The position numbers were made by a program, and so were the translations under genes. A stretch of 64,000 nt of DNA from Gillisella vitis (GTDB lineage: Bacteria; Pseudomonadota; Alphaproteobacteria; Rhizobiales; Rhizobiaceae), in assembly GCF_001541345.2 (NCBI RefSeq), contig NZ_LMVL02000007.1, positions 124,001 through 188,000 on the forward strand, read 5' to 3'. Below are positions 37,033-51,783 of this stretch, one piece after another (position 1 is the first letter of the stretch; each line of letters starts with the position of its first letter). The notes below the pieces were generated by a model, which saw only the letters and a list, made by a program, of their open reading frames with translations, made no database searches and was not told the DNA's origin.

Positions 37033-40000
37033 ACATTTCAGCTTTTTCCATCCGCAATCCGGTTCCAGCTATTCTCCTGTTTGCACTCATGACCGTGTGT
37101 GGCTTGATTGCCTTCGAGAAGCTCAGGGTTCAGCAGTTTCCCGACATGGATCTGCCGACGATCAAGATTAGCGCAACGCTGGATGGTGCGGCACCATCGC
37201 AACTTGAAACCGAAGTCGCTCGCAAGATTGAGGACAAGCTCGCGACCCTCAACAAGCTGGATCACATCACCACGACAATTACCGACGGCTCGGTGTCGAT
37301 CAGCGTTTCCTTCAGCCTTGAAAAAGACGGCGAGCAAGCGCTGAACGAAGTTCGCAACGCTGTGGACAGCGTTACCGATCTGCCATCCGCGATGCAGACA
37401 CCAAGCGTCTCACGGGTCACGGTGCAATCGTCCGTGTTGCAGACCTATGCTGTGCGATCAAAGAAGCTGAATGAAACGGAACTGTCCTGGTTCGTTGACA
37501 ATGACATGACCAAGGCTTTGCTGACAGCCCAAGGTGTCGGAGAGGTTGATCGTTTTGGCGGTGTGGATCGAGAAGTTCATGTCGATATCAACCCGGCATT
37601 GTTGACAGCATTTGGTGTCACAGCGGCAGATGTGTCGTCGCAGCTCAAATTGGTGCAGGAAAATGCGTCCGGCGGGCGTGGAGATTTGAACGGACTGCAT
37701 CAGACGGTGCGGACATTGGGTGCTGTCAACTCCGTACAGGAGGTTGCAGCAATTACAATTCCGTTCTCCAATGGCAAGAGCGTGCGCCTCGACCAGATCG
37801 CCAAGGTGAGCGATAACTATTCCCAAAGATCTTCCCTTGCTTATCTGGGGCAGACGCCGGTGATTGCCGTTGAGGTCAAGCGCAGCAACGGTTATTCCGA
37901 TACGGGTGTCGCCACCGATCTGGCGCGGGTGATGGCAACATTTGCAGCCGAGCATCCCGAAGTCGAAATTGTGCAGGCCTACACAACGGTTCAGCCAACA
38001 ATCGACAATTATGACGCTTCGATGCACATGCTGTATGAGGGAGCGGCCCTGGCAATTGTCGTGGTCTTTCTTTTCTTGCGCGATTTTCGAGCAACCATCC
38101 TCTCTGCCGTTGCTTTGCCACTCTCGATTATTCCGACATTCCTTGTGATCTATCTCGCGAATTTCAGCCTCAATACGATTTCTCTTCTGTCGATTTCGCT
38201 GGTGGTGGGGATTCTCGTTGACGATGCAATCGTCGAGGTTGAAAATATCGAGCGACATCTGCGCATGGGCAAAAAACCCTATGATGCAGCCATGGAAGCG
38301 GCAGATGAGATCGGCCTTGCCGTGATTGCAACAACATTCACGCTGGTTGCGGTTTTCCTGCCCACCGCGTTTATGGCCGGTATTCCCGGGTTGATCTTCA
38401 AGCAATTCGGTGTGACCGCCGCCGTCGCCGTGCTGGCGTCACTGATGGTTGCCCGTTTTCTGACGCCGATGATGGCTGCGTATATGATGAAGGCGACGCC
38501 GAAAGTGGAAGTGGATGGGGTCATCATGAAGACCTATCTCTCCATTGTGCGCGCATGTCTGCGCCACCGCTTTCTGACCAGTCTTGGCATTATCGTTTTC
38601 CTTGTCGTCTCACTTTCGGCAGTGTCTCTGCTGAAGACCGGCTTCTTTCCGGCCTCTGACAACGCTCAGACCCAGGTGACGTTGACAATGCCCCCTGGAA
38701 CAGAGCTTTCCGACACAGAAGCCATGTCGCTTAAAGCCGTGAAACTGATTTCCGGACTTGAGAATATAAAGCGCGTGTTCACTGTCGTCGGCTCCTCCAC
38801 AAGTGGGGCCGGTGCTGATAGCAGCACAACCAGTGACGTTACAACCGCGACATTGGTGGTTGATCTTACCCCAATCGATGATCGAAAGCTGAAGCAATCG
38901 GAAATCGAGCAGCAGATGCGTGATGCCTTGCAGCAGCTTACTGGCGTTCGTGTCGAAGTCGGCAACGGGGGCAATGGCACCGAGCTCCAGCTAACGCTGG
39001 CAAGCGATGATCCGACGCTTCTCGATCAGACAGCCGCTGCCGTTGGAGAGCAGTTGCATGGCTTGAAAGGGATTGGTGGCATCACGTCCAGCGCGGCCAG
39101 ACAGGCCCCCGAAATTCAAATCACGCCGAATTTCGCCCGCGCGGCGGCTTTGGGCATCACCTCGGATACGATTGCGGACGTTGTGCGTGTCGCAACTGAC
39201 GGCGACTATTCCACATCCCGTTCCAAACTGAATCTTCCTCAGCGGCAGATCGATATCCGTGTCCGGCTCGATCCCAAATATATTCACAACCTTGATGCCA
39301 TCTCGCAACTGCAACTTTCTGGGACGAACGGAAAAGTGTCACTTGGCGCAATTGCCGGAATCCGAATCGGGGGCAGCCCCTCGGAGATTGATCGGATCGA
39401 CCGATCCCGCAACATTACCTTCACCATCCAGTTGAACGGTCGTGCCTTGGGAGATGTCAACAAGGAAGCGATGGCGTTACCGGGCCTCAATCATCTCCCA
39501 CCAGGAGTGCATATCGTCCAGCAAGGCGAGCTTGAGCGCATGTCGGAATTGTTCACCAGTTTTGCCTTGGCGATGGGCATCGGCATCTTCTGTATTTATG
39601 CGGTGCTGGTCTTGTTGTTCCACGATTTCATGCAACCGGCGACGATCCTGATGGCACTTCCGCTCTCGCTTGGCGGCGCGCTCTTTCCGTTGATTGTGAC
39701 GGGCACGAGTTTCTCGATGCCCGCAGTCATCGGCCTTTTGATGCTGATGGGCATTGTCAGCAAGAATTCAATCCTGCTGGTGGAATATGCCATCATGGCG
39801 CGACGCAATGGCATGAGCCGCTATGAGGCGCTGGTTGATGCCTGCCACAAACGCGCCCGGCCAATCGTGATGACGACAATCGCCATGGGCGCTGGCATGG
39901 CACCTGTTGCCCTCAGCCTCAGCGGCGGCGATACGAGTTTCCGTCAACCGATGGCTATCGTTGTGATTGGCGGCTTGCTCACGTCCACCGTCCTGAGCTT

Positions 40001-40112
40001 ATTGGTGATCCCCGTCATTTTCACCTTTGTTGATGACCTGCTGGACCTTGTCAAAAGGCCTTTCATAAAAAGTCAAAAGGATATCCCTGATGGGGAATCC
40101 GCAAGCGGCTGA
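37029..40112 (+). CDS. RND multidrug/solute efflux transporter (AcrB/MexF superfamily)
   Basis: An inner-membrane proton-driven exporter of 1027 aa, the standard length. It starts MNISAFSIRNPVPAILLFALM (first membrane segment), followed by a large periplasmic loop. The transmembrane core has the proton-relay region LSISLVVGILVDDAIVEVENIERHL, with paired aspartates, and later GIVSKNSILLVEYAI and PIVMTTIAMGAGMAPVALS. It ends in a membrane segment and short tail. It is the third gene of the tripartite operon, overlapping the adaptor by four bases. Substrate unknown. Regulation by the divergent two-component system is likely. Confidence 0.93.
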   Translation: MNISAFSIRNPVPAILLFALMTVCGLIAFEKLRVQQFPDMDLPTIKISATLDGAAPSQLETEVARKIEDKLATLNKLDHITTTITDGSVSISVSFSLEKDGEQALNEVRNAVDSVTDLPSAMQTPSVSRVTVQSSVLQTYAVRSKKLNETELSWFVDNDMTKALLTAQGVGEVDRFGGVDREVHVDINPALLTAFGVTAADVSSQLKLVQENASGGRGDLNGLHQTVRTLGAVNSVQEVAAITIPFSNGKSVRLDQIAKVSDNYSQRSSLAYLGQTPVIAVEVKRSNGYSDTGVATDLARVMATFAAEHPEVEIVQAYTTVQPTIDNYDASMHMLYEGAALAIVVVFLFLRDFRATILSAVALPLSIIPTFLVIYLANFSLNTISLLSISLVVGILVDDAIVEVENIERHLRMGKKPYDAAMEAADEIGLAVIATTFTLVAVFLPTAFMAGIPGLIFKQFGVTAAVAVLASLMVARFLTPMMAAYMMKATPKVEVDGVIMKTYLSIVRACLRHRFLTSLGIIVFLVVSLSAVSLLKTGFFPASDNAQTQVTLTMPPGTELSDTEAMSLKAVKLISGLENIKRVFTVVGSSTSGAGADSSTTSDVTTATLVVDLTPIDDRKLKQSEIEQQMRDALQQLTGVRVEVGNGGNGTELQLTLASDDPTLLDQTAAAVGEQLHGLKGIGGITSSAARQAPEIQITPNFARAAALGITSDTIADVVRVATDGDYSTSRSKLNLPQRQIDIRVRLDPKYIHNLDAISQLQLSGTNGKVSLGAIAGIRIGGSPSEIDRIDRSRNITFTIQLNGRALGDVNKEAMALPGLNHLPPGVHIVQQGELERMSELFTSFALAMGIGIFCIYAVLVLLFHDFMQPATILMALPLSLGGALFPLIVTGTSFSMPAVIGLLMLMGIVSKNSILLVEYAIMARRNGMSRYEALVDACHKRARPIVMTTIAMGAGMAPVALSLSGGDTSFRQPMAIVVIGGLLTSTVLSLLVIPVIFTFVDDLLDLVKRPFIKSQKDIPDGESASG

Positions 40113-40149
40113 TGGTTTCGATTAAGTTGATTGGCTGTCTCCTGGCACT

Positions 40150-41445
40150 CTAACGTAGGTGAGCGACAACTACAGATGCTGGTGTCGCCAAGTTCGACAG
40201 GAGTTGCAAGCTTGCAGTCAGCAGCACTTGCGCCCCTGCGACAGAATCCGCAGGTTTGACATACTCTTCTTCGTTATGGCTCAATCCATCTCGACATGGA
40301 GTAAAAATCATCGCAGAGGGTGCGACACGATTGATGAAAAGTGCATCGTGAAAAGCACCGGACACCATGGATTTATGGGCAAAACCGGCATCAATCGCGG
40401 CGCTCTCCAGTATGGTAACCAGATGATCCGTGAAACGCGCTGGAGCCATGTCGAAGAGCAGTTCAATTTCGAGATCACATCCATTCTCGCCAGCATGATC
40501 CTGCAGGACCTTGCGTATCTTCGCTTCGATCAGATCCAGTTGCTCAAAATTGGGGTGGCGGATATCCAGCGAAAACGTCACGGCTGCCGGAATGGCATTG
40601 ATGGCCCCCGGTTCCAGCGAAAACCGGCCGACTGTCAGACGTGATTGGGCATCTTGCGGCATGATGTCATGATAAAGCACGTTCAAGCCGGAGACGGCGG
40701 CGCGCATGGGGTCTTTGCGGTAGGACAGTGCTGTGGTGCCTGCATGGGCAGTCTGGCCCGAAATGGTCACCTGAAGCCAGCGGGTGCCTTGAATCCCCGT
40801 GACGATGCCGATGGGCAGACCCTCTTTTTCCAAGGATGGGCCTTGCTCGATATGCACTTCAAGATAAGCAAACACCGGAAAGCCCAGCGGCCTCATGGCA
40901 GCGCCTTGCAAGTCAGCAAGCGTTGCTGCCAAATCATCGGAAAACAGCGCGCCATCCGTTGCCCGCGCCATAGGCCATGCGGGGGAAATGGCACCCTGCG
41001 AAAAGGCCATGGACCCCATGCATCCGGGGGCAAAACGGCAGCCTTCTTCATTGGTGAAGGCAACGACTTCCACGGCGCGCTCTGTCTCTATGCCGTGATC
41101 TTCCAATGTTTCGAGCACTTCGAACGCGCAGAGTGTGCCTAGCGCACCATCAAACCGCCCGCCAGAGGGCTGACTGTCGAGATGACTGCCAATCAGCAGC
41201 GGCGGTAAATCCGGATTTAGTCCCTCGCGGCGCAGGAACAGGTTGGCGATCGGGTCCTGATAGACAGAAAATCCACGCGCCCGACCAAGATCGGCCAGCA
41301 ATTGCCGCGCCTGACGATCAAGCGCCGTCAGGGCCTGCCGATTAACACCACCTTTGGACGTAGCACCAATCGCGGCAAATTGGTCCAATCGGGCCAAAAG
41401 CCGCTCGCCATTGACCTCTAACAGTCCTTTACCCGCTTGTGCCAT
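40150..41445 (-). CDS. Zn-dependent amidase, N-carbamoyl-L-amino-acid hydrolase/allantoate amidohydrolase family
   Basis: A peptidase-M20-related hydrolase of 431 aa. Metal ligands are His and Asp in IGSHLDSQPSGGRFDGALG (about residues 83-101) and Glu in FTNEEGCRFAPGCMGS; a later EVHIEQGP carries a further ligand. The C-terminus has the expected SGAFHDALF and HNEEEYV. Family members cleave carbamoyl or ureido groups from amino acids or allantoate. It is the last gene of a short leftward pair with the BtpA-like gene (five bases upstream), within a cluster of unknown substrate. Confidence 0.85.
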   Translation of the reverse strand: MAQAGKGLLEVNGERLLARLDQFAAIGATSKGGVNRQALTALDRQARQLLADLGRARGFSVYQDPIANLFLRREGLNPDLPPLLIGSHLDSQPSGGRFDGALGTLCAFEVLETLEDHGIETERAVEVVAFTNEEGCRFAPGCMGSMAFSQGAISPAWPMARATDGALFSDDLAATLADLQGAAMRPLGFPVFAYLEVHIEQGPSLEKEGLPIGIVTGIQGTRWLQVTISGQTAHAGTTALSYRKDPMRAAVSGLNVLYHDIMPQDAQSRLTVGRFSLEPGAINAIPAAVTFSLDIRHPNFEQLDLIEAKIRKVLQDHAGENGCDLEIELLFDMAPARFTDHLVTILESAAIDAGFAHKSMVSGAFHDALFINRVAPSAMIFTPCRDGLSHNEEEYVKPADSVAGAQVLLTASLQLLSNLATPASVVVAHLR

Positions 41446-41450
41446 GGTAT

Positions 41451-42293
41451 TTACGCCTTCAAGCCCGGCTGGGCCGCCGCCACAAAAGCCTTAACGCGCT
41501 CAATATCCACGGGATTCCACCAGACATCGCCATGTTTGAGTGATGAAGCAACGATAACCCCGTTGGTGCGTTTCAGGATCTCGACGATATTGTCCTTGGA
41601 AACACCCGAACCAACCAAAAGAGGCAGATGCGTCGCCGCTCCAATCTCTTCAATCTCCTCCATCGTCGCGGAATTGCCGGTGCGTTGGCCGGTGGCAATC
41701 ACCGCATCGGCATCGAAAAACGCAAGGTCACGGGTCAATTCCTGAATGGTGCGGTCGGCAGTGATGGCGTGGGCGCCGTGCTTGACATGGCTATCGGCAA
41801 ACACCTTGATATGTTCGGCCCGTAGCATGGAACGGTAGCGCATGGCCTCCGCCGCCCGTCCCTCCATGAAGCCTTCATTCGCGACATAGGCATTGGCCCA
41901 TTGGTTGACCCGCACGAATTTTGCCCCGCCCGCCATGGCAATGGCAAAGGCCGGAATGGGCGCATTGGCCAGGACATTGATACCCAGTGGCACACCAACC
42001 GCACGGCAAATGCGGTCAGTCACCACACTCATGAAGGCGGATGTTTCCGGCCCGATGTCATCCGGCTTGGAAAAAGGAATGTCGCCGTGGTTTTCAATCA
42101 TCAGCCCATGCATGCCGCCCTCAATCAGCGCTTCGGCATCAAGCATGCAGGCATCGTAAATCTCTGTCATGCTCGCGCCGCGATAGCGCGGCGCACCGGG
42201 AAAGGCCGGGCAATGGATCATGCCGATCAGCGCCTTGTCGCGCCCGAAAATTTCCCGTATGGCGCTTGATGTGTTGTCGGATATATCCAGCAT
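41451..42293 (-). CDS. BtpA/SgcQ family TIM-barrel protein
   Basis: A protein of 280 aa. It begins with LIGMIHCPAFPGAPRYRG (about residues 22-39), a conserved block of the BtpA/SgcQ family. IEGGMHGLMIENHGDIPF and LLVGSGVSKDNIVEIL follow, consistent with a phosphate-binding TIM barrel. E. coli SgcQ is annotated as a putative nucleosidase without firm proof; plant and cyanobacterial BtpA is linked to photosystem I. Next to a PfkB kinase and a sugar-type importer, a role on a glycosylated substrate is plausible. It is divergent from the kinase gene, with only 46 bases between the starts. Confidence 0.85.
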   Translation of the reverse strand: MLDISDNTSSAIREIFGRDKALIGMIHCPAFPGAPRYRGASMTEIYDACMLDAEALIEGGMHGLMIENHGDIPFSKPDDIGPETSAFMSVVTDRICRAVGVPLGINVLANAPIPAFAIAMAGGAKFVRVNQWANAYVANEGFMEGRAAEAMRYRSMLRAEHIKVFADSHVKHGAHAITADRTIQELTRDLAFFDADAVIATGQRTGNSATMEEIEEIGAATHLPLLVGSGVSKDNIVEILKRTNGVIVASSLKHGDVWWNPVDIERVKAFVAAAQPGLKA

Positions 42294-42339
42294 TTCTCAT
42301 TTCCTTTTGAAAGCCTGCCATGCGTGTTGAAAGTCTGTG

Positions 42340-43236
42340 ATGCGTGCCTGGGTAATCGGCAATGTCGCAATCGATGAAATCATGTCCGTACCGACCATGC
42401 CAGAGGCTGGCGCGTCGATTTTTGGCCAGCAGCAAAGCACGGATCTGGGTGGCAAAGGCGCCAACCAGGCGATTGTTCTGGGCCGCGCCGGTTTGGGCAC
42501 CACGCTGATTGCCGCTGTCGGCAACGACTTTCGCGCCTCGATGATCCGGCAGAGCCTGTCTCTGGAGCCGATCGATACCCGCTTGATCGAACTTGTCGAT
42601 AAAGCCAGCGACGTCTCGATGATCTTCACCATACCGGATGGCGAAAATGCCATCATCACCACAACAGACTGCGCCGCCAGCGTCCGGCCCGAGCATGTTA
42701 CCAGCGTCTTACAGGCGGCAAAACCCGGCGATCTGGCCATTCTCCAAGGCAATCTCACCGATGATACCACGGCTGCCCTCCTACACGAGGCCAAACGCCG
42801 TGGTATGATCACCGCCTTTAACCCATCACCGTTGCGGCCCGGCTTTGCTGCCCTTTGGTCGCTGATCGACATTGCCTTTTTGAACCAGGGCGAAGCCGAT
42901 AAGCTGACAGGTGAAAGCGGCGAAGCCGCCACCCAATGCTTGCGTGATGCCGGTGTTGGTACCGTCATCATCACCCTTGGCGGCAAGGGAGCGATCTTGG
43001 CGGATCGCACCGGCACCACCACAATCCCAGCCGTTCCATCCGTTGCTGTTGACACCACTGGTGCTGGCGACACGTTCATGGCGGTTGCGCTGGCGTCCAG
43101 CAGTTTGCGCCATGTCATGCCCGATGGCCTGGCGCTGCGCCATGCAGCACAGGCCGCCAGCATCACCGTCAGTCGCCGGGGAACCCGGTCTGCGTTTCCA
43201 TCACAGACCGAGTTGGCAGCTATCCTCGCCACGTGA
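42340..43236 (+). CDS. PfkB-family carbohydrate/nucleoside kinase (ribokinase-like)
   Basis: A kinase of 298 aa. The N-terminal pattern is STDLGGKGANQAIVLGRAG (about residues 31-49), and the C-terminal signature with the catalytic base Asp is VDTTGAGDTFMAVAL. ILADRTGTTTIPAV and FLNQGEADKLTG also fit ribokinases. ATG 42340 or the GTG just before it could be used; neither has a strong ribosome site. It is the only gene of this cluster on the plus strand, with five bases to the convergent neighbour at 43242 and 46 to the divergent BtpA gene. Substrate unknown: a sugar or nucleoside. Confidence 0.87.
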   Translation: MRAWVIGNVAIDEIMSVPTMPEAGASIFGQQQSTDLGGKGANQAIVLGRAGLGTTLIAAVGNDFRASMIRQSLSLEPIDTRLIELVDKASDVSMIFTIPDGENAIITTTDCAASVRPEHVTSVLQAAKPGDLAILQGNLTDDTTAALLHEAKRRGMITAFNPSPLRPGFAALWSLIDIAFLNQGEADKLTGESGEAATQCLRDAGVGTVIITLGGKGAILADRTGTTTIPAVPSVAVDTTGAGDTFMAVALASSSLRHVMPDGLALRHAAQAASITVSRRGTRSAFPSQTELAAILAT

Positions 43237-43241
43237 GAACA

Positions 43242-44012
43242 TCACCGCGCTTGCGTCATCCAGCCCAGAATGTTCTTCCACAGCTTGCCATAGCCTTCCC
43301 ACTCGCAAAACGCAGGCGAGAGCCAATGGGGTCCGATATCAGACGTCCAGGCCACGGTACGGCCCTTGCCAAACGTGCCGGTGACCAGCAGCGGATGGCT
43401 GCCCTGATCCTTGGGCAGACGTACAATCACCTCGACATCATCACCCTCGCGCACCTCAACCTCGTTGACGCCGAGCAGCAAAGGCCATTCACCGGTGAGG
43501 CCAGCAACGGTTGGGTGGTTGGGCTTGATCACATCGGCGGTTGAGCCTTCAGGGATTTCCACCCGGTCATCATAGGGCAGGCAGGTGACGGGCAGCACGT
43601 CTTCCACCGGCGTGCGACGCCAGCGGGCCTTGCCATCAATGCCCTGGAACGAGAAATAGCCACCGACCATCAGCAGGTTGCCGCCCTTTTCCACCCAGGC
43701 CTTGATCAGCTTCAGGCGGTTGGGAACGGTTTTGGAATGCAGCCACACGGCAGGTGGCAGCAGCAGGGAATTCGCCCCGATGTCGGAGAGGATAATGGCA
43801 TCATAGGCATCGAGACCGGCCATCTCGAAGGGGAATTTTTCCACTGCTTCATGGGCAGGCATATAGGTCAGCTCAAATTCGCTGCCTTCCAATGCTTTCA
43901 CCAGCGGCTCCGCGCCCAGATGAAAGGTGACGCTGCCAAACTGATCAAAACCTTTGTAATGCGTGGCGGAGCTGACCCAGCTTTCACCCACGAGAAGAAT
44001 TTTCTTTGTCAT
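43242..44012 (-). CDS. ThuA/DUF1355-like glutamine-amidotransferase-fold protein
   Basis: A soluble protein of 256 aa. It starts TKKILLVGESWVSSATHYKGFDQF, then has YDAIILSDIGANSLLLPP and WVEKGGNLLMVGGYFSFQGIDG, the layout of the class I amidotransferase-like DUF1355 group, often annotated as cytoplasmic protein. GKGRTVAWTSDIGPHW follows near the C-terminus. No classical amidotransferase Cys-His-Glu triad is apparent, so an enzymatic role is uncertain. ATG 44012 has AAGGAC seven bases upstream. It lies 30 bases downstream of the phosphotriesterase-family gene in the same direction. Confidence 0.7.
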   Translation of the reverse strand: MTKKILLVGESWVSSATHYKGFDQFGSVTFHLGAEPLVKALEGSEFELTYMPAHEAVEKFPFEMAGLDAYDAIILSDIGANSLLLPPAVWLHSKTVPNRLKLIKAWVEKGGNLLMVGGYFSFQGIDGKARWRRTPVEDVLPVTCLPYDDRVEIPEGSTADVIKPNHPTVAGLTGEWPLLLGVNEVEVREGDDVEVIVRLPKDQGSHPLLVTGTFGKGRTVAWTSDIGPHWLSPAFCEWEGYGKLWKNILGWMTQAR

Positions 44013-44042
44013 GTTCTTTGTCCTTATCTGATGCAACAGGTC

Positions 44043-45110
44043 TCAGGCGGCAGCCTGAAAGACCGAACGGGGATTGCCCCGCATGAGGGTGGTGAGAGCG
44101 TCAGCACCGAGGCCATGACGCTGGAGGCGCGGCAAGAAATGCCGCAAAATATAGGCATAGCCATTGCCGCCATAGCGGCTGAGCATCATCTTCAAAAACA
44201 CATCATGGGAGAGCAGGATGCGGTCGAAATGGCCCATCTCCACCAGCTTGACGATGGCGCGGGCGGCATCCTCATCGCTGGGGCATTGCACCTGCTGATC
44301 GGCGTAGAAAAAATCCATGCCGATCATGTCATATTCAATAAACGCACCCCGGCTGGCCAGTTCGCCTTGATAGGTCAGATCATCATGGGATGGGTTCATG
44401 TGGCACAGCACCGTGTGGCGCAGGTCTGCCCCTTCTTCTGCGGCAATATCCAGCACTTTGTGACCCAGCCGATACCAGCCCGGCAGATGCACCATCAGCG
44501 GCAGGCCGGTGCGTAACTGCGCCTGGGCTGCGGCCCGCAGTGACTTTTCCTCCTCAGCGGTGAAATCAGAGGAGACGCCAATTTCCCCAATCAGGCCGAT
44601 TTTGACATCGGTACCATCAACGCCAACCAGCGCTTCCTGCACAATTTCATCGGCAATGGCCTCCACCGTCATCTCTGCCACCTTGGCGGGATGGGATGAA
44701 GCCAGATAATAGCCAGCGCCCATAACAATATTCAGCCCGGACGCCTTGGCAATACGGCGCAGCGCCATAGGATTACGGCCAATGCCCTGACAGGTTGGCT
44801 CTACCACGGTCTTGCCACCCGCTTTGGCAAAATCCATCAGCTCAAGGATGGCCAAAGGCTCGTCATCCAGCGTGATGTTATGCTTGTTCACAAAGGGGTC
44901 CTGGCGCAACTCGCCCAGAATCTCCATGCAGACGAAGCCTTCTGCCAGATATTGCCGATCAGGCGTTTTAGGCTGATGCCACCAACAACGGCAATCATTG
45001 AGGATGTGCTCGTGCATCAAGGTCACGCCCATCTGGTCCACTGAGATGGGGCCGGCCACCGTCATCACCTTGCCGGAGCGGATATGAGCCTCTGAGAGTT
45101 CACTGGTCAT
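44043..45110 (-). CDS. Phosphotriesterase-family metal-dependent hydrolase
   Basis: A hydrolase of 355 aa in the amidohydrolase superfamily. Ligands visible are HEH in VTLMHEHILND (about residues 32-42), the Glu after strand 4 (IGLIGEIGVS), His in PLMVHLPGW, His in HTVLCHMNPSHDD and Asp in ILLSHDVFLK. The bridging ligand after strand 4 is Glu, not the carbamylated Lys of organophosphate-degrading enzymes, so a lactonase, amidase or carboxylesterase role is likelier. It starts three bases after the permease stop and is part of the importer operon. Natural substrate unknown. Confidence 0.85.
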   Translation of the reverse strand: MTSELSEAHIRSGKVMTVAGPISVDQMGVTLMHEHILNDCRCWWHQPKTPDRQYLAEGFVCMEILGELRQDPFVNKHNITLDDEPLAILELMDFAKAGGKTVVEPTCQGIGRNPMALRRIAKASGLNIVMGAGYYLASSHPAKVAEMTVEAIADEIVQEALVGVDGTDVKIGLIGEIGVSSDFTAEEEKSLRAAAQAQLRTGLPLMVHLPGWYRLGHKVLDIAAEEGADLRHTVLCHMNPSHDDLTYQGELASRGAFIEYDMIGMDFFYADQQVQCPSDEDAARAIVKLVEMGHFDRILLSHDVFLKMMLSRYGGNGYAYILRHFLPRLQRHGLGADALTTLMRGNPRSVFQAAA

Positions 45111-45113
45111 ATC

Positions 45114-46118
45114 TCACCCTTTCTTCGCGGCGCCGAAGCGGAAGTTTGCGGAAAAGATCCGGGTGTTCAGCCAGATCGCCACAAGAATGATCGCGCCCGT
45201 GACAATCTGCGTGAAAAACGGCGAGATATGCATGAGAATGAGACCATTGCCGATCACCGCGATGGTCATGGTGCCCAGCAGCGTTCCCAGCATGGTGCCG
45301 CGCCCGCCCGTCAGCGACGTGCCACCCAAAACCACGGCAGCAATCACCTGCAATTCAAAGCCGACGGCGGCGTTGGAGGAGCCTGAACCAAGGCGGGCCG
45401 CAATCAACAGGCCAGCAAGGGCGCAAGCCACGCCAGACACCAGATAGACAGAGGCGACTATCCATTTCGCGGGCATGCCCACCCGACGTGCCGCTTCCAG
45501 ATTGGAGCCGACGGCCACCACCTGACGGCCATATTTGGTGGAGGAGACCAACACAAACCCAAAGACTGTCACGGCAATGGCAATCAGAGCCGGAACCGGA
45601 AGGCTCAGGAACTCGCCACGACCCAGCGTGAAGAACCCCGGCACCTCGTTGATGGGAATGGAATAGCCTTGGGTGATGTAGAGCGCCACGCCGCGCAAGA
45701 TCGAAAGCCCTGCCAGCGTGACAATAAAGGCCGGAATACCCTGATAGGCAATGAACCATCCCTGAATCAGGCCGATCATGCCACCCAGAACCAGCATCAA
45801 CAGCACGGCCAAGGGCCATGACAGGCCAGTTGCCAGCACAATGGCCACCGTTGCATTGATCAGCGCCACCAGCGAGCCAACGGAAAGATCAATGCCGCCA
45901 GTCACAATCACCAGTGTCATCGCCACAGCAACAATCAAAATGGGAGCAGCTTGTCGCACCACATTGAGAATATTGCCGAGCGTGAGAAATGTATCGGTTG
46001 TGACGGAGAAGAACACCATGCAGGCAAAGAAGAAAATCGCAATCGACAGAACCTGGGCATTTTCGGTGATAAAGTCAGCGAAGGGCGAGCCTTTGGCGCG
46101 TTCAGTATAGGCGGTCAA
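45114..46118 (-). CDS. Sugar-type ABC transporter permease (RbsC-like)
   Basis: A membrane protein of 334 aa with eight to ten hydrophobic segments. It has VTGGIDLSVGSLVALINATVAI near residue 70, GWFIAYQGIPAFIVTLAGLSIL in the middle, and VVLGGTSLTGGRGTMLGTLLG with the conserved glycine loop in the C-terminal part. These are standard for carbohydrate uptake family 2 permeases. It overlaps the ATPase gene by four bases and is followed after three bases by the phosphotriesterase-family gene. Ribose- or nucleoside-like cargo would fit the family, but nothing in the sequence fixes it. Confidence 0.9.
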   Translation of the reverse strand: MTAYTERAKGSPFADFITENAQVLSIAIFFFACMVFFSVTTDTFLTLGNILNVVRQAAPILIVAVAMTLVIVTGGIDLSVGSLVALINATVAIVLATGLSWPLAVLLMLVLGGMIGLIQGWFIAYQGIPAFIVTLAGLSILRGVALYITQGYSIPINEVPGFFTLGRGEFLSLPVPALIAIAVTVFGFVLVSSTKYGRQVVAVGSNLEAARRVGMPAKWIVASVYLVSGVACALAGLLIAARLGSGSSNAAVGFELQVIAAVVLGGTSLTGGRGTMLGTLLGTMTIAVIGNGLILMHISPFFTQIVTGAIILVAIWLNTRIFSANFRFGAAKKG

Positions 46119-46930
46119 TGTCTTTCCCCTCCGACGATCAATTTCACCAGATCTTCAAGGTTGGTGCTACCAATCTGCCGCTCGGCCACTTTCGTGCCTT
46201 CATACATCACCGCGATGCGGTCGCAGACACGAAACAAATCTTGCAGGCGATGGGTGATCAGCACCACGGAAACGCCTCGGGCCTTGACGCGGTTGATCAG
46301 TGCCAACACCGCTTCCACTTCCGCCACGGCCAGCGCCGAAGTTGGCTCATCCATGATCAGCACTTTGGGATTGAAGGAGGCCGCACGGGCAATGGCAATC
46401 GCCTGCCGCTGGCCGCCCGACAATTTCTCGACCTTGGCGGTGAGGCGCGGAATGCGGATTTCCAGCGCATCCAGCATCTTGCGGGCTTCCACCAGCATCC
46501 GGGCGCGATCCAGAAACGGGCCTTTGGTCAATTCCCGGCCCAGAAACAGATTGCCAACCACATCAATATGGTCACACAGGCTCAAATCCTGAAACACCAT
46601 CTCGATATTGCGCGAGCGCGCCTCGGCGGGACCGGAAAACCGCACCGCCTCGCCGTCCAGCGTGATGGTACCATCATCCGGGATATAGGTGCCGGAAATC
46701 ACCTTGGTGAGCGTTGATTTACCCGCCGCATTGTCGCCGACCAAGCCTAAGCATTCGCCGGGAAAAAGATCGAGATCAACACCACGCAGCGCCTGATGCG
46801 AGCCAAAAGTTTTGCGGATACCACGAAGCGAAATCCGGGGTTCACGCGCACCGCCTTCTCCGGGTTGCCGGGGGAGATCAACTCCCCCGGCTCCAGAGAC
46901 AGCGGTTGGGAGCTGTCCACCGGAAATCAT
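46115..46930 (-). CDS. Sugar-type ABC transporter ATPase, single-domain (FrcA type)
   Basis: An ATPase of 271 aa. An extra N-terminal tail of about 30 residues rich in Gly and Pro precedes the domain. Walker A is GDNAAGKSTLTK, Q-loop VFQDLSLCDHIDVV, signature LSGGQRQAIAIARAA, Walker B VLIMDEPTSALA, and the H-loop VLITHRLQD. As in the ribitol importer, one domain replaces the two of RbsA. The gene overlaps both neighbours by four bases (ATGA at each junction), showing tight co-translation with the binding protein and permease. Confidence 0.92.
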   Translation of the reverse strand: MISGGQLPTAVSGAGGVDLPRQPGEGGAREPRISLRGIRKTFGSHQALRGVDLDLFPGECLGLVGDNAAGKSTLTKVISGTYIPDDGTITLDGEAVRFSGPAEARSRNIEMVFQDLSLCDHIDVVGNLFLGRELTKGPFLDRARMLVEARKMLDALEIRIPRLTAKVEKLSGGQRQAIAIARAASFNPKVLIMDEPTSALAVAEVEAVLALINRVKARGVSVVLITHRLQDLFRVCDRIAVMYEGTKVAERQIGSTNLEDLVKLIVGGERH

Positions 46931-47886
46931 TTGAACACTGCCCGGTAAGGCTCAACATTGGCCTTGGTGACGATGGTGACCGGCACGGCAATGGTCTTTT
47001 CAACCTTGCCGCCGTCAGCAATGGTCTTCAGCGCTTTCACAGCCGCTTCACCCATGGCTGCCGGGTCCTGCTGGATCACCGCGGCAACATAACCGGCATC
47101 AATGCCAGCAATCGCCTGCGCCGTCAGATCCCAGCCAAACACTTTGACACTGTCCTGCTTGCCCTGGCTTTGCACGGCGGCAACGGCACCCAGCAGGGCT
47201 GGCTCGCCCGTGGCATAGATTGCGGTCATATCAGGGTTGCCAGTGATCAGGTTTTCGGCCGCTGCCAGTGCATTGTCCTGGACGTTCTGGCCATCAACCA
47301 CACCTGCCGACGTGATACCGGAGACGCCCTTGATGGTGTCTTCAAAGCCCTTCTGGCGGATATTCTGGATGAAGGAGTTCAGCGCGCCGACAACGCCCAG
47401 CTTGGCTTTGCCACCCATGTCCTTCTTGACGTAATCGACGAAGAATTTGCCAATATCGGCTCCTGCCTTGGCGTTATCGACGCCAATCTGTGCCTTCTGA
47501 GGGCCAGCAGGCAAAATGCTGTCGATGGCGACCACCGGAATGCCGGCGTCGGCTGCTTGTTTGACCGCTGGCATGATGCCGTTGACGTCAATGGCCACAA
47601 CGGCAATACCGTCTACCTTCTGCTGAATATAGGTCTCGATGGCGCTGTTTTGAGCAGCAGGGTCATTGTTGGCGTTGAAAATCACCAGTTTTGCGCCTGC
47701 GGCATCTGCGGCCTTCTGGGCACCCTGATTAATCTGGTTGAAAAACAGTGCCTGTTGATTGATCTGCACCAGCGCAAAGGTTTTTTGCGCGGCATTGGCA
47801 ATTCCTGCGGTCAGGCACAGGCCGGTGAGGGCTGTGACAGCCAAGGCTGCATTGATGGTTCTACGTGTGAAAGTCCGGGTCATCAT
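46927..47886 (-). CDS. Sugar-type ABC transporter periplasmic binding protein
   Basis: A periplasmic protein of 319 aa (RbsB-like, PBP type 1). A signal peptide ends GIANAAQ. The mature part has FALVQINQQALFFNQINQGAQ, DGIAVVAIDVNGIMPAVKQAADAG and DMTAIYATGEPALLGAVAAVQSQG, the usual lobes. It is the first structural gene after the LacI regulator, only 36 bases downstream of its stop. The regulator and importer may therefore share one transcript. The binding-site residues do not identify the ligand. Confidence 0.9.
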   Translation of the reverse strand: MMTRTFTRRTINAALAVTALTGLCLTAGIANAAQKTFALVQINQQALFFNQINQGAQKAADAAGAKLVIFNANNDPAAQNSAIETYIQQKVDGIAVVAIDVNGIMPAVKQAADAGIPVVAIDSILPAGPQKAQIGVDNAKAGADIGKFFVDYVKKDMGGKAKLGVVGALNSFIQNIRQKGFEDTIKGVSGITSAGVVDGQNVQDNALAAAENLITGNPDMTAIYATGEPALLGAVAAVQSQGKQDSVKVFGWDLTAQAIAGIDAGYVAAVIQQDPAAMGEAAVKALKTIADGGKVEKTIAVPVTIVTKANVEPYRAVFK

Positions 47887-47922
47887 TCCATCCTCTGGTT
47901 ATAGGTTTGCCCGTTGCTTTTG

Positions 47923-48942
47923 TTATTTCGCTGGCGGTGCAACGGAGTTCCGCACGACGATTTCCACTGGCAGCAATTCCTCCGATGCTTTCGGAGGCTG
48001 TTGCCAATCCGTATCAAGAAGCAGCGAAAGAGCGCGACTTCCCATTCCCCGCACCGGCTGACGGATTGCCGTCAACGGCGGGGCAAAAAGATGCAAAGGT
48101 CCAACATCATCGAAGCCGATGACGGAAATCTGCTCAGGAATGGAGATCCCTTCCGCTCTGAGCACTTCAATGACGCCAATGGCAATTTCGTCGGAGCTGG
48201 CGAAAATCGCGGTCGCCTCGCGGTCTCCTTCCAGAAAACGCCGCGCTGCCTGTCTGCCAAACTCGGCGGTATAATCACCGCAGTAGCGCTCAATCACCGC
48301 ATTCTCACCGTGCTTGGCGCGCATGGCGGCTTCAAAGCCGGTAAAGCGGCGCTCGGTGCTGATCATCACATCCGGCCCGCCAATATAGAGAACATGTCGA
48401 TGGCCAAAACCGGCGAGATGCTGCCCGGCCAGTTCTCCGCCTTGCTGGTTGTCACAAAACAGCTTTGGCACGGTCGCATCCGGCACGTCTTCATCGACCA
48501 CAATCACTTTTCCGGTGCGGTTAATGATCGCCGCCAACTCACCCTGGTCGGGGTGATTGGTGATAAAGATCAGGCCATCCACATGGTTGCGCTCCAGCAG
48601 ACTGAGGTATGCCATCTCGCGGCCCGGGCGGTTTAGCGTAGCGTAGAGCGACAGTGCCAAACCGCGCAGATCCGCTTCCTCCTCGACGGCAGCCACCAGA
48701 GTTGCAAAGAACGGATTGGCAATATCCGGCACCACAAGACCGATGGTGTCCGAGCGGCCACGGCTGAGACGCCTAGCGTGCGGATTTGGCTGATATTTGA
48801 GCGCGACAATGGCGTCTTCAATCCGCTTGCGCGTCTCGCCGGGAAGGTCAAGCGAGCCATTCAGCATGCGCGACACGGTGGTCACCGACACGCCAGCGGC
48901 GGCGGCAACATCCTTTAACCCAGTGACCCGTTCCTTGACCAT
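47923..48942 (-). CDS. LacI-family regulator of the unknown-substrate cluster
   Basis: A regulator of 339 aa. The helix-turn-helix is TGLKDVAAAAGVSVTTVSRMLNG, with the hinge following RRLSRGRSD, and the sensor starts TIGLVVPDIANPFFATLV. ATG 48942 gives the usual seven-residue lead into the helix-turn-helix; the open frame upstream covers the operator and is unlikely to be translated. Its operators, TGTAAAGCGGTTTA and GTAAAGCGCTTTAC, lie 9-36 bases upstream of the ATG. It leads a run of leftward genes with very short gaps, so it probably controls its own transcript and the importer. Confidence 0.88.
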   Translation of the reverse strand: MVKERVTGLKDVAAAAGVSVTTVSRMLNGSLDLPGETRKRIEDAIVALKYQPNPHARRLSRGRSDTIGLVVPDIANPFFATLVAAVEEEADLRGLALSLYATLNRPGREMAYLSLLERNHVDGLIFITNHPDQGELAAIINRTGKVIVVDEDVPDATVPKLFCDNQQGGELAGQHLAGFGHRHVLYIGGPDVMISTERRFTGFEAAMRAKHGENAVIERYCGDYTAEFGRQAARRFLEGDREATAIFASSDEIAIGVIEVLRAEGISIPEQISVIGFDDVGPLHLFAPPLTAIRQPVRGMGSRALSLLLDTDWQQPPKASEELLPVEIVVRNSVAPPAK

Positions 48943-48950
48943 ATCCACCC

Positions 48951-48978
48951 TGTAAAGCGGTTTAGTAAAGCGCTTTAC
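48951..48978 (-). promoter_or_regulatory. Tandem LacI-type operators with promoter
   Basis: GTAAAGCGCTTTAC at 48965-48978 is a perfect 14-bp palindrome with the central CG typical of LacI-family sites. A second, imperfect copy, TGTAAAGCGGTTTA, adjoins it at 48951-48964. On the minus strand TTGACA at 49009-49004 and TGAACT 17 bases later (48986-48981) form a plausible promoter. The operators fall just after it, where a repressor would block transcription of the LacI gene and the cluster behind it. Confidence 0.7.
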
Positions 48979-49097
48979 AAAGTTCACATAGCCCTGCGCT
49001 TTTTGTCAAGCAACCATAAGGCTATTTTTTAGTCGGCGGCGAATGTCGCATAAAATGTAAGCGAAAGATTCTATTTATCGTTTCAATGAACATCCTT

Positions 49098-49331
49098 TTA
49101 TGGCGTTAAAATCCGAGGACGCATGGACTTAATTTCCAATCTGAGAAGGGACGTCTGGGATGTTGACTCCATGCCACATACGGCAAGAAGGTCTTCCATA
49201 TCCGCTGTGCTCAGGGCATGCCGGTGATGGAGCCACACTGCGTAGGTGGCAATTTCCAGCAGAAAACCAAACACCTTCAGAGAGGGAAATGCGCTCGGAA
49301 ATTTCATTTCGTCTCGATACCCAAGACGCAC
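49098..49331 (-). pseudogene. IS6-family transposase remnant
   Basis: A short minus-strand frame contains EIATYAVWLHHRHALSTADM, then EDLLAVCGM. This lines up with the N-terminal helix-turn-helix of IS6 transposases (compare HAVWLYFRFPLSLRMVEDML in the copy at 3671). No DDE region is present on either side. It is a degraded fragment, different in sequence from the intact copy, so it is from another IS6 subgroup or a much older event. Confidence 0.6.
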
Positions 49332-49530
49332 GGATCAAACAACTTGGCATTACCATCCAGCATATTGCTTACAACCGAACTCAACCAATGATTTTATATT
49401 TGGTCCGATTTCGTACAAAAGTTGTTGCGCTGCACGGTTTTTAACGCCATCATCATATGCGTCGCCAGCCACGCAAGGGCGCAGGCGTTTGAAAGAGACT
49501 CGTGCTTTCGCCTCGTTCATGGAGAGCACG

Positions 49531-50298
49531 ATGTCCGGACAACATGCCAGCTTGTTTGAAAACCGCCTGCTTCGAGCGCTTTCGCCGGCCGACCTTCATT
49601 TACTTGTTCCCAGCCTCGAGCGAGTGCAGCTCAGTCTCCGGCAATCGCTTGAGACAGCACATCAGCCGATCGATCGCGTCTATTTTCTTGAGTCTGGCCT
49701 GGGTTCCGTGGTTGCCAGCAAAGATGGCGGCACGACAGTCGAAGTCGGCCTGTTCGGCCGCGACGGCATGACAGGCACGTCCATCGCCTTGGGTGATACG
49801 GAAAGTCCGTTCGATTGCTTCACACAGATGGACGGTTCTGCGATGCGCATTTCGGCTGACAACCTGCGTAAAGCCATGTCCAAAAGCATCGCGGTTACAG
49901 ACCTGCTCATCCACTATGCGCGCTCGCTTGGTATACAGACGACTTATACGGCTCTTGCGAACGGCCAAATCAAGCTGGAGGAGCGGCTGGCGCGGTGGAT
50001 TCTGATGGTGGATGATCGCGTCGATCATGGCAGTTTTCTTGTGACCCATGAGTTTCTCGCAATGATGCTCGGGGTCCGACGCCCCGGCGTCACGGTGGCG
50101 TTACAGATTCTCGAGTCCAGCCATCTGATCAGGTCGCAGCGCGGCGAGATTGTCGTCAAAGACCGAGAAGGGCTCATAAGACTCACCAAAGGCACATATG
50201 GCCCGTCCGAGGAAGAATATGAGCGCTTGACCGGCATTCGTCTTGGGAAATCCAAACCGGTTCCAAAGGACGATACACCTCTTGCAACACCTGCCTGA
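49531..50298 (+). CDS. Crp/Fnr-family transcription regulator
   Basis: A regulator of 255 aa. The N-terminal cyclic-nucleotide-binding-like fold includes RVYFLESGLGSVVASKDGG, TVEVGLFGRDGMTG and ALGDTESPFDCFTQMDG. A dimer helix (LLIHYARSLGIQTTYTALANG) leads to the C-terminal helix-turn-helix, THEFLAMMLGVRRPGVTVALQILE. No N-terminal cysteine set for an iron-sulphur cluster is present, so an Fnr-type oxygen sensor is unlikely. ATG 49531 has GGAGAG four bases upstream; earlier in-frame starts cover decayed sequence. A 68-aa gene follows 41 bases downstream. Confidence 0.87.
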   Translation: MSGQHASLFENRLLRALSPADLHLLVPSLERVQLSLRQSLETAHQPIDRVYFLESGLGSVVASKDGGTTVEVGLFGRDGMTGTSIALGDTESPFDCFTQMDGSAMRISADNLRKAMSKSIAVTDLLIHYARSLGIQTTYTALANGQIKLEERLARWILMVDDRVDHGSFLVTHEFLAMMLGVRRPGVTVALQILESSHLIRSQRGEIVVKDREGLIRLTKGTYGPSEEEYERLTGIRLGKSKPVPKDDTPLATPA

Positions 50299-50339
50299 AA
50301 AGCCACCGGCGCAAATCCGGCAACCGTTGAGGACCAGAC

Positions 50340-50546
50340 ATGACCTCAATATATGACCGACCGATCGACACAACATCCGACGCCAGTCTTCTGGATGCAT
50401 TCACTGAAGCCTGCGCACAACATGGAATTTCGCCTGACGGCGACGATGGTTGCGATCTTGCAACCATTCTTAATCGCGCGTTTGACCGAGGCATCACCAG
50501 CAAGGATGCGCTTATCGCTCTTGTCCTAAACCTGGTCACGGAATGA
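50340..50546 (+). CDS. Small hypothetical protein of 68 aa
   Basis: A short acidic protein (MTSIYDRPIDTTSDASLLDAF...) with no signal or membrane segment. It looks mostly helical, with a repeated LLDAF/LATILNRAF/ALIALVLNLV pattern of leucines and alanines. Gene length, codon use and position right after the Crp/Fnr gene, with a hairpin terminator 60 bases beyond, favour a real gene. I recognise no family. It may be a small partner of the regulator. Confidence 0.5.
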   Translation: MTSIYDRPIDTTSDASLLDAFTEACAQHGISPDGDDGCDLATILNRAFDRGITSKDALIALVLNLVTE

Positions 50547-50605
50547 AATGAGACCAACATCTTCCGATATAATTGCGCAGTTTCTAGCAACGAATTCGAG
50601 GGGAC

Positions 50606-50648
50606 AATACGAGGATTCATTGAAAATGACTCCTCGTATTGCTTTTGA
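50606..50648 (+). terminator. Hairpin terminator after the Crp/Fnr and 68-aa genes
   Basis: AATACGAGGA at 50606-50615 pairs with TCCTCGTATT at 50631-50640, with an inner stem TCATT/AATGA. GCTTTT follows the right arm. The long stem and partial T-run suit rho-independent termination of the rightward transcript. Confidence 0.6.
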
Positions 50649-50795
50649 AAGCATCTCAAGCCTCTGATATATTTGAGATATGTTCAATTCTTTCAAATCG
50701 AGGAAGCGTCAGCATCTTCGAGACCTGGTATCACTGCAATAATCGAACGTTTGGCAATTGGGATTGGGTCGGTGGCTTGGCATCCTTGCGGCAAG

Positions 50796-50835
50796 CTCAT
50801 TCACCGGCATGACATCCGTCATGCCGGTGAATGAG
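50796..50835. repeat. Perfect 18-bp hairpin without T-run
   Basis: CTCATTCACCGGCATGAC (50796-50813) and GTCATGCCGGTGAATGAG (50818-50835) are exact inverted arms with a four-base loop, ATCC. It lies 34 bases beyond the 3' end of the amino-acid binding protein gene (leftward). No T-run follows on either strand, so it is not a standard intrinsic terminator. It could stabilise the mRNA end or be a small intergenic repeat. Confidence 0.7.
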
Positions 50836-50868
50836 ATCTATATCCCCAATCAAGTTTAGGGTTATTGA

Positions 50869-51708
50869 TTATGGAATTGGATCGAACTTCAATTCGCTCA
50901 GTTTCACAACCTTGTCGGTGCGGGTCATTTTATATTCGGTATCCGGGCCAAGCCATTTGTTCCAGATCTTGTTGATTTCGCCATCCGCATCAAGGGCGCG
51001 CAGCGTATCATTGATCTTGGCGGTCAGGGCAGGCTCGTCCTTTTTCATGCCAACGCCGATGGGCTGATAGAGCATCGGATCATCAATCATCCGCATCTTC
51101 TTGCCCTTGGTCTGGGATTCGTTGACGAATTTGGTGGTGGTCATGGTGTTGGCAACCATGCCTTCTGCCTTGCCCTGCTGAACGGCGAGATAGGCCGATG
51201 CCGTATCCTGGAAGGTCAGCGGGTCCGACTTGTTGAGCTTGATCGACATCTCGGATGTAGAACCCTTGGTCGAGGCCAAACGCTTGCCGGTGAAATCAGC
51301 CTTGGTCTTGCCGGAATTGTCGTCAGGAACAATCAGCATTTCCTTGGCAAGGTAGTAAGGGTCGCTGAACTGAATCTGTTCGGCGCGGCTCAAAGTGTAG
51401 GCGAGATTGGCAACGGTGATATCAACGCGGCCAAGCTTGACTTCCGGCACGCGGGCTTCCACCGATACCGGCTTGATTTCGGCCTTCACGCCCAGTTTTG
51501 CAGCAATGGCGTTGCACAGATCAACGTCAAAGCCAGCCATTTCGCGGGTCTTGGGGTCTGGAGAAGCAAAAGGGGGAACATCGGCGAAGGTTGCGCAACG
51601 CAGGGTCTTGGCGGCCATGATATCGGCCAGCTGATCGGCGCTTGCAGGGGCTGCAATGGCGGTGGTGGCGGCAAGCGCCAGACCTAGGGTGATGCATTTC
51701 ATGTTCAT
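50869..51708 (-). CDS. Amino-acid ABC transporter periplasmic binding protein (SBP family 3)
   Basis: A periplasmic protein of 279 aa. A signal peptide ends PASA. The mature part has LADIMAAKTLRCATFADVPPFASPD, the family's GFDVDLCNAIAAKLGV motif and DITVANLAYTLSRAEQIQFSDPYYL, followed by the second lobe. This is the polar amino acid/opine binding family. It is the last gene of the leftward ATPase-permease-permease-SDR set, separated from the ATPase by 75 bases. The neighbouring 5-oxoprolinase genes suggest uptake of 5-oxoproline, glutamate-like or D-amino acids, but the ligand is not readable. Confidence 0.9.
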   Translation of the reverse strand: MNMKCITLGLALAATTAIAAPASADQLADIMAAKTLRCATFADVPPFASPDPKTREMAGFDVDLCNAIAAKLGVKAEIKPVSVEARVPEVKLGRVDITVANLAYTLSRAEQIQFSDPYYLAKEMLIVPDDNSGKTKADFTGKRLASTKGSTSEMSIKLNKSDPLTFQDTASAYLAVQQGKAEGMVANTMTTTKFVNESQTKGKKMRMIDDPMLYQPIGVGMKKDEPALTAKINDTLRALDADGEINKIWNKWLGPDTEYKMTRTDKVVKLSELKFDPIP

Positions 51709-51783
51709 TGCTGTTCTCCTTGGTTTTTATTGTGATGGTACGTAGGTGGTTTGGTCCTTTTTGCCCGTTTCTGAGATTGAGCC

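Follow-up and report, generated by a model that had tools for sequence, protein, structure and literature searches.

A plasmid-borne, LacI-associated operon of Gillisella vitis and its possible role in the breakdown of a sugar with an amide-bearing substituent

We analysed a 64,000-nucleotide stretch of DNA of the grapevine-associated Gillisella vitis (contig NZ_LMVL02000007.1, positions 124,001 to 188,000; hereafter the window, whose own numbering we use) that contains an 8.8-kb, plasmid-borne gene cluster (40150–48942). The cluster combines a LacI-family repressor, an importer, a PfkB-family kinase, a BtpA-family protein and predicted amide hydrolases. NZ_CP118261 is 98.5% identical, and nine further plasmid records cover the cluster to 99–100% at 92–97% identity. 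We propose, with a probability of about 0.5, that it is an operon which, under LacI repression, serves the catabolism of a ribose-like sugar with an N-linked, amide-bearing substituent, resembling a nucleoside or a glycosylamine. The enzyme families are compatible with a substrate that contains a sugar and amide-type bonds, as a first-pass annotation of this DNA had supposed, and no described pathway with this gene set was found in the open-licence literature, in keeping with the same annotation.

Gene order and regulatory DNA

Nine open reading frames are present at the coordinates of the first-pass annotation, and their families were assigned by Pfam and NCBIfam models. Eight of them lie on the minus strand, separated by −4 to 36 bp except at the site of the kinase gene. 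The first encodes the LacI-family repressor (47923–48942; PF00356 and Peripla_BP); its frame is also open to an upstream GTG at 48987, and the operators described below precede the ATG at 48942. Three importer genes follow: a periplasmic binding protein (46927–47886; PF13407; best solved relative 5hsg, 417 bits), a single-domain ABC ATPase of 271 amino acids (46115–46930; PF00005) that aligns only to the first half of the approximately 500-amino-acid ATPases of sugar importers, and an AraH/RbsC-like permease (45114–46118; PF02653) that scores 206 bits on the NCBIfam AraH model and 205 bits on the ribose permease model, both under the cutoff. Next come a PTER-type amidohydrolase of the phosphotriesterase (PTE) family with a bridging Glu (44043–45110; PF02126) and a GATase1_like protein (43242–44012; PF07090), given here in the 771-bp form annotated in plasmid pAtS4e, although its frame stays open to a TTG at 44036. 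The last two genes encode a TIM-barrel protein of the BtpA/SgcQ family (41451–42293; PF03437) and an M20 amidase of the hydantoinase/carbamoylase type (40150–41445; TIGR01879).

The PfkB ribokinase-like kinase (42337–43236; PF00294), with GGKGANQA, QGN and DTTGAGD motifs, is encoded on the plus strand between these two pairs, tail-to-tail with the GATase1-like gene (5 bp) and head-to-head with the BtpA gene (43 bp). Because it is on the opposite strand, seven genes follow LacI on the LacI strand, and not the eight in short-gapped order that had been described. The family names given earlier to the importer, PTE, PfkB, BtpA, amidase and LacI proteins are upheld by the models; the gene called DUF1355-like is better placed as PF07090 (430 bits), its closest solved relatives being 2gk3 and 3soz.

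Related loci for comparison were the best 80 of 221 retrieved with the GATase1-like protein; they are close relatives of one another and not independent. Upstream of LacI, the tandem operators reported in the first-pass annotation are present at 48952–48977, as GTAAAGCGGTTTA at 48952 and GTAAAGCGCTTTA at 48965, 13 bp apart. With up to 2 mismatches the operator pattern has 9 matches in the window where 2.15 are expected, and the 3 exact matches all fall at this one spot. At least one site was found in 76/76 LacI-bearing related loci and at least two in 75/76, and all 78 spacings are 13 bp (locus L090, in which the LacI frame could not be refined, was left out of this survey). A TTGACA on the minus strand (49004–49009), 26 nt before the first operator, is the likely −35 box of a single operon promoter; a TTGAC lies 18–26 nt ahead of the first operator in all 76 loci, a count made with no shuffled control. 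A scan of the window gave 5 promoter-like and 7 terminator-like sites, compared with 3.7 and 9.0 in shuffles, and the five do not include this TTGACA.

Between LacI and a point 4 kb beyond BtpA, the PfkB–BtpA junction included, no further LacI operator scored above threshold (the 5th percentile of the scores of known sites) in the 76 loci. Given this result and the conservation of the tandem pair, the DNA suggests that one LacI-controlled promoter likely serves the operon, and that BtpA and M20 are probably transcribed by read-through across the antisense kinase gene. One transcript that spans an antisense gene is known as a non-contiguous operon; the architecture fits this description, with no second operator found and the PfkB and BtpA starts 23–43 bp apart. 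Synonymous-site variation is reduced at the first codons of both genes, in loci with an inverted kinase gene and in those with a forward one alike.

Conservation and modularity

Gene content of the 80 loci was scored by tblastn with the nine window proteins. LacI, importer, PTE, GATase1-like, PfkB and BtpA genes occur all together in 77, so the neighbourhood, the conservation of which the first-pass annotation had made decisive for its proposal, is conserved; M20 stands alongside in 44/77. The other three loci (L032, L038 and L070) have BtpA, PfkB and GATase1-like genes with a dipeptide-type importer, as judged by eye, and two of them also have a gamma-glutamyltransferase. The PTE was found in 10 of 398 genomes of a phylum sample at E 1e-60 and BtpA in 18 of them at E 1e-15, the window genome included in both counts; a class-wide BtpA search at E 1e-60 matched 2/385 genomes, one of them the window's own. 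The cluster or parts of it are annotated on plasmids of Pantoea, Paracoccus, Rhizobium, Shinella, Pararhizobium and Roseivivax.

The kinase gene is inverted in 60 of the 77 loci, its start 23–43 bp from that of BtpA, and forward in 17, where it stands behind BtpA and a TenA gene (the TenA gene was read in two of the 17; tblastn finds it in every locus that lacks M20). The head-to-head PfkB–BtpA pair also occurs beside the binding-protein gene, in three loci outside the window's class and on a Pantoea plasmid. A more distant PfkB (35–36% identity) occupies the same place in forward orientation in four loci of the window's family and on four plasmids.

The cluster joins two separable modules, both of them supplied by importers of one kind. 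Genome G311 carries them apart: one locus has an importer, PTE, GATase1-like and a penicillin amidase gene, and the other has LacI, an importer, TenA, BtpA and PfkB. Genome G418 carries the PTE half and is absent from the BtpA matches at E 1e-15.

Enzymes of the cluster

The window BtpA scores 240 bits on PF03437 (cutoff 30) and 227 bits on TIGR00259 (cutoff 153), and it falls below the photosystem I biogenesis equivalog NF045918 (191 bits, cutoff 400). Its genomic context is nearly constant. A PfkB gene lies no more than 0.8 kb from BtpA in 80/80 loci, and PfkB, FGGY or phosphotransferase system (PTS) genes stand beside all 19 BtpA places in the phylum sample, in neighbourhoods of about 20 kb or less; the extra place from the class-wide search likewise has PfkB. 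For comparison, PfkB genes number 13 in the 5.75 Mb of the window genome, or about 0.05 per 20 kb (counted from 14 rows, two of which are pieces of one gene, with FGGY and PTS genes outside the count). Pfam assigned all ten divergent partner kinases tested, seven of them from the phylum sample, to PfkB or FGGY. Among 19 plasmid regions chosen from the 60 listed of 185 records matching BtpA, 17 have PfkB, FGGY or PTS genes, one as an FGGY gene in two frames. BtpA is also near a sugar kinase or PTS in Thermus and Haloferax.

An AlphaFold model of BtpA built from 29 sequences (pLDDT 78.6, pTM 0.83) is a TIM barrel, with HisF, HisA, TrpA, TrpF, DHPS, MJ1099 and ThiE, known phosphate binders, among its nearest folds; a sequence search of the Protein Data Bank (PDB) gave nothing better than E 0.048. 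In 18 divergent BtpA proteins the loop-7/loop-8 end, at which phosphate would bind, is alike and G230 and K253 are invariant, whereas the loops after strands 2, 4 and 5 split into PfkB-linked and FGGY/PTS-linked types. This pattern suggests ligands that share a sugar phosphate at one end and vary at the other. On the near-constant pairing with a kinase or PTS, the phosphate-barrel fold and the conserved phosphate-end loops, the kinase most likely acts before BtpA, which would then work on a phosphorylated compound. This is the reverse of the order proposed in the first-pass annotation, in which BtpA splits its substrate and PfkB then phosphorylates the sugar.

Two kinds of outlying BtpA locus were seen on plasmids. 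In Aminobacter pANY103c (L153) a BtpA with no kinase lies near genes annotated for purine biosynthesis (SAICAR synthase and purH) and for a phosphoribosylanthranilate isomerase, perhaps a set for a purine-derived pathway. Three Rhizobium plasmids (L158, L170 and L169) have a distant BtpA beside a gamma-glutamyltransferase and an FGGY kinase (in two frames in L169), to which L158 and L170 add a carbohydrate importer and a DeoR regulator; this is a separate uncharacterised set.

The best solved relative of the kinase is 3i3y/3ikh (259 bits), and it fails the ribokinase equivalog TIGR02152 (197.8 bits, cutoff 299.65). Ribose contacts in Escherichia coli ribokinase are N14, D16, G42, K43, N46, E143 and D255 (PMC9604405). 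The window kinase keeps five of these seven, together with GGKG-NQA and the catalytic Asp motif, and has Ala for N14 and Asn for E143. The latter change lies in a QGN that occurs at one fixed place, the Glu143 site, in 80/80 BtpA-linked kinases of the close loci and in 15/15 further BtpA-linked kinases with GGKG-NQA. As controls within the window genome, 4/4 GGKG-type ribokinases have Q-x-E, and QGN appears in 0/12 PfkB proteins. Because this change is shared, we suggest that the substrate of the kinase is the sugar of a conjugate and not free ribose.

For the PTE, the nearest solved proteins are 3k2g (568 bits), Pmi1525 (231 bits) and PTER 9efa (213.5 bits). Its metal site has the HxH/H/H/D pattern and an HEH motif, and the alignment to PTER places a bridging Glu (GEIG, E176) at the position of the carbamylated Lys, as had been read from the sequence; all five metal-site motifs occur together in 69/77 relatives. 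PTER, a mammalian enzyme of the same family that also has the bridging Glu, is the closest characterised relative found. It is an N-acetyltaurine hydrolase, and 3K2G, the structure common to both comparisons, is named by its authors as its top structural PDB match (PMC11374699). The nearest relative of known activity that was found is thus an N-acyl amide hydrolase and not a hydantoinase. In the same source the substrate contacts of mouse PTER are R204, R233 and H300 (PMC11374699), which correspond to G211, P240 and F305 in the window PTE (the chain offset of 7 was verified on E169, chain 176). Because these contacts are not kept, PTER's own activity is not transferable and the window enzyme should have another substrate; N-acetyltaurine was ruled out on this ground.

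The M20 protein belongs to the hydantoinase/carbamoylase subfamily TIGR01879 (371 bits, cutoff 204), aligns to solved proteins 4wjb (331 bits) and N-carbamoyl-beta-alanine amidohydrolase 8c46 (264 bits), and falls short of the allantoate deiminase AllC model TIGR03176 (207 bits, cutoff 598). Across the 77 loci it partly alternates with TenA: 34 have both, 10 only M20, 33 only TenA and none neither. The hypergeometric probability of this complementarity is 0.0023, a value that ignores the relatedness of the loci and that we do not count as proof. There is no TenA gene among those of the window cluster. One TenA protein of the relatives was tested and belongs to PF03070; one representative (from L044), aligned to 1rtw and 2rd3, has no Cys135 and keeps the equivalent of Glu129 of Pyrococcus furiosus, and so shows the TenA_E pattern. 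TenA_E proteins are described in PMC5635689 as amidohydrolases that functionally stand in for YlmB of thiamin salvage. Other BtpA loci have other amide hydrolases, namely M42 peptidase, gamma-glutamyltransferase, ArgE/DapE deacylase and Amidase, and a penicillin amidase gene adjoins one PTE half.

The GATase1-like protein has GGYFS, as judged by eye, at the elbow that in class I glutamine amidotransferases bears the nucleophile Cys. Its orthologue on pRL9 of Rhizobium johnstonii 3841 (L144, 4876–5649) has a computed mass of 28.31 and lies 45 RefSeq tag steps past bdhA (46 by the old numbers; bdhA is pRL90175, 27.21 kDa in both). In PMC7105596 and PMC7900000, pRL90221 of Rhizobium leguminosarum 3841 is listed as a putative glutamine amidotransferase of 28.31 kDa from pea bacteroids, and its level is reduced (about 0.7) in mutants of gpxA and gmcA. 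We infer from the agreement in name, mass and place that pRL90221 is this orthologue and, because it was detected in pea bacteroids, that this orthologous gene is expressed in nodules. The permease mutant of PMC4495286, pRL90234, was also considered; its tag number is 13 higher than that of the GATase1 gene, so it is probably not part of this importer. A search of the open-licence literature for six old pRL9 tags, those that the cluster should bear, found no papers.

A proposed pathway and its alternatives

By homology, the ribose-type ABC transporter would import the compound, and LacI would repress at the two tandem operators over one promoter, a role that the conserved DNA also points to. 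The PTER-type PTE and M20 are predicted from their families to hydrolyse amide-type bonds of the substituent, a Cys-less TenA protein replacing or joining M20 in relatives. PfkB would phosphorylate the sugar of the conjugate, as its shared QGN suggests; BtpA would bind the resulting sugar phosphate and split or rearrange the bond between sugar and substituent, and a pentose or ketose phosphate would be released to central metabolism. The GATase1-like protein is given no step in this scheme. The most likely sequence is import, amide hydrolysis, phosphorylation and BtpA, although the amide steps may come before or after the kinase. The order of kinase and then BtpA has good support from gene context and fold; that BtpA cleaves a C–N bond is a guess. 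The best substrate candidates are ribosyl-amides, nucleoside-like compounds and glycated amino acids. A substrate with a ureido or hydantoin ring is possible and not required; M20 is missing from 33 of the 77 loci, all of which have TenA.

Known systems share parts of this logic. In FrlD/FrlB and FraD/FraB a PfkB-family kinase phosphorylates a sugar–nitrogen conjugate before a second enzyme splits it, and FraE adds an amide hydrolase to the fructose-asparagine set as amide hydrolases are added here; however, FrlB and FraB are SIS-fold deglycases and BtpA is a TIM barrel, and the PTE, GATase1, TenA/M20 and LacI/ribose-type importer are new compared with those routes. Pseudouridine breakdown by PsuK and PsuG likewise begins with a PfkB kinase and continues with cleavage of the 5′-phosphate, but PsuG is not known as a BtpA protein and the window kinase scores 22 bits on the pseudouridine kinase model (cutoff 540). 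In the enteric sgc cluster the BtpA-family SgcQ is accompanied by a PTS, by an M42 peptidase and by a gene of the ribulose-phosphate epimerase family; there a PTS takes the place of the ABC importer and kinase, and the active-site side of SgcQ is unlike that of the window BtpA.

Several observations weigh against the proposed pathway. Because the modules are separable and each has its own importer, a single linear pathway is not obligatory, and module A (PTE and GATase1) and module B (BtpA, PfkB and TenA) may act on different compounds. As noted, the 80 loci were chosen as the closest of 221 and are related to one another, and the plasmid regions were hand-picked for diversity. Six BtpA-linked PfkB proteins of divergent loci have neither GGKG-NQA nor QGN, so the motif rule for the kinase is not universal, and no kinase is seen in the plasmid BtpA loci of Aminobacter H88 and Phyllobacterium H100. 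Many phosphate-binding barrels share the fold match of BtpA, which indicates no reaction. The PTER contacts are replaced, M20 is dispensed with as noted above and TenA is missing from 10/77 loci; moreover, amide hydrolases are common genes, and the neighbour counts lack a baseline from random loci.

The same lack of a chance baseline applies to the evidence for a related idea, the breakdown of glycated amino acids or peptides of the Amadori type, in which, on the model of FrlD/FrlB or FraD/FraB, the kinase would act on the sugar, BtpA would be the deglycase and the amidases would trim peptide or amide bonds. BtpA loci are repeatedly accompanied by gamma-glutamyltransferase, M42 peptidase, ArgE/DapE deacylase or Amidase (L140), a gene of the ribulose-phosphate 3-epimerase family is found at the SgcQ locus, and TrpF and HisA, which are Amadori-type isomerases, are among the nearest folds of BtpA. 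Yet the kinase reaches 52 bits on the model for fructoselysine 6-kinase (cutoff 247), and neither TenA nor the PTER-type PTE nor the GATase1-like protein is known to take part in the established routes for glycated amino acids; we regard this idea as doubtful. The route of the first-pass annotation, in which BtpA splits a glycosylated ureide or lactam, PfkB phosphorylates the sugar, the PTE opens the ring and M20 decarbamoylates the product, agrees with an M20 above the TIGR01879 cutoff and related to N-carbamoyl-beta-alanine amidohydrolase. We consider it unlikely: the BtpA fold, phosphate-end loops and kinase or PTS pairing point to a phosphorylated substrate, the kinase is without ribokinase Glu143 in all 80 close loci, many loci have no M20 and an N-acyl amide hydrolase is the closest characterised relative found for the PTE.

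Salvage of thiamin fragments would assign M20 and TenA to N-formyl-aminomethylpyrimidine, in the manner of YlmB and TenA_E, which carry out the same amide hydrolysis, and make PfkB a pyrimidine kinase. The interchange of TenA and M20 parallels that of TenA_E and YlmB, and the TenA representative without Cys but with the Glu129 equivalent has the appropriate pattern. An Rfam scan of window positions 37000–52500, with E up to 0.5, returned only a weak snoRNA match and no thiamin pyrophosphate (TPP) riboswitch, and LacI control, a ribose-type importer, a ribokinase-like kinase with PF00294 as its sole Pfam match, the absence of TenA from the window cluster and the presence of BtpA, PTE and GATase1, which are not known to have a role in that pathway, together make such salvage very improbable. 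The least probable of these alternatives is sugar lactone catabolism, with the PTE as a lactonase on a furanose or phosphofuranose lactone and the amidase genes as accessories. The PTE family includes phospho-furanose lactonases, and there is a weak match to NF045706 (60 bits); the cutoff of that model is 630, PTER is far closer (213.5 bits) and M20 or TenA is present in 77/77 loci.

Rhizobia and agrobacteria commonly carry the operon, which also occurs on Pantoea and Paracoccus plasmids, and the R. leguminosarum GATase1-like protein was detected in pea bacteroids; a compound from plants or soil that many root bacteria use may therefore be the substrate. BtpA/SgcQ proteins are widespread, and the cyanobacterial member is named, by its model, a photosystem I biogenesis protein; a search of the open-licence literature showed no reaction catalysed by the family. 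The pairing of kinase and BtpA makes the reaction of the family testable with few candidate substrates. We tentatively extend the proposal, as something possible rather than probable, to a new BtpA class of deglycases or nucleotide-type glycosidases that splits sugar-phosphate C–N bonds across Bacteria and Archaea, downstream of PfkB, FGGY or PTS, with this operon serving a common plant or soil sugar-amide and its antisense kinase and non-contiguous operon being kept in alpha- and gammaproteobacteria (Pantoea).

A gene for a Crp-family regulator (HTH_Crp_2 and cNMP_binding; 49246–50298, plus strand) lies upstream of the operon, and genes annotated in the S4 plasmid as an RND efflux pump (window 35725–40112) are convergent with it and end 37 bp from the M20 end. 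In some relatives (L092, 14659–20412; also L054, L056 and L066) a second sugar importer and a second GATase1-like gene lie near the cluster. In L092 a LacI–PfkB fusion protein of 399 amino acids precedes the second importer; it is not directly linked to BtpA and has neither GGKG-NQA nor QGN.

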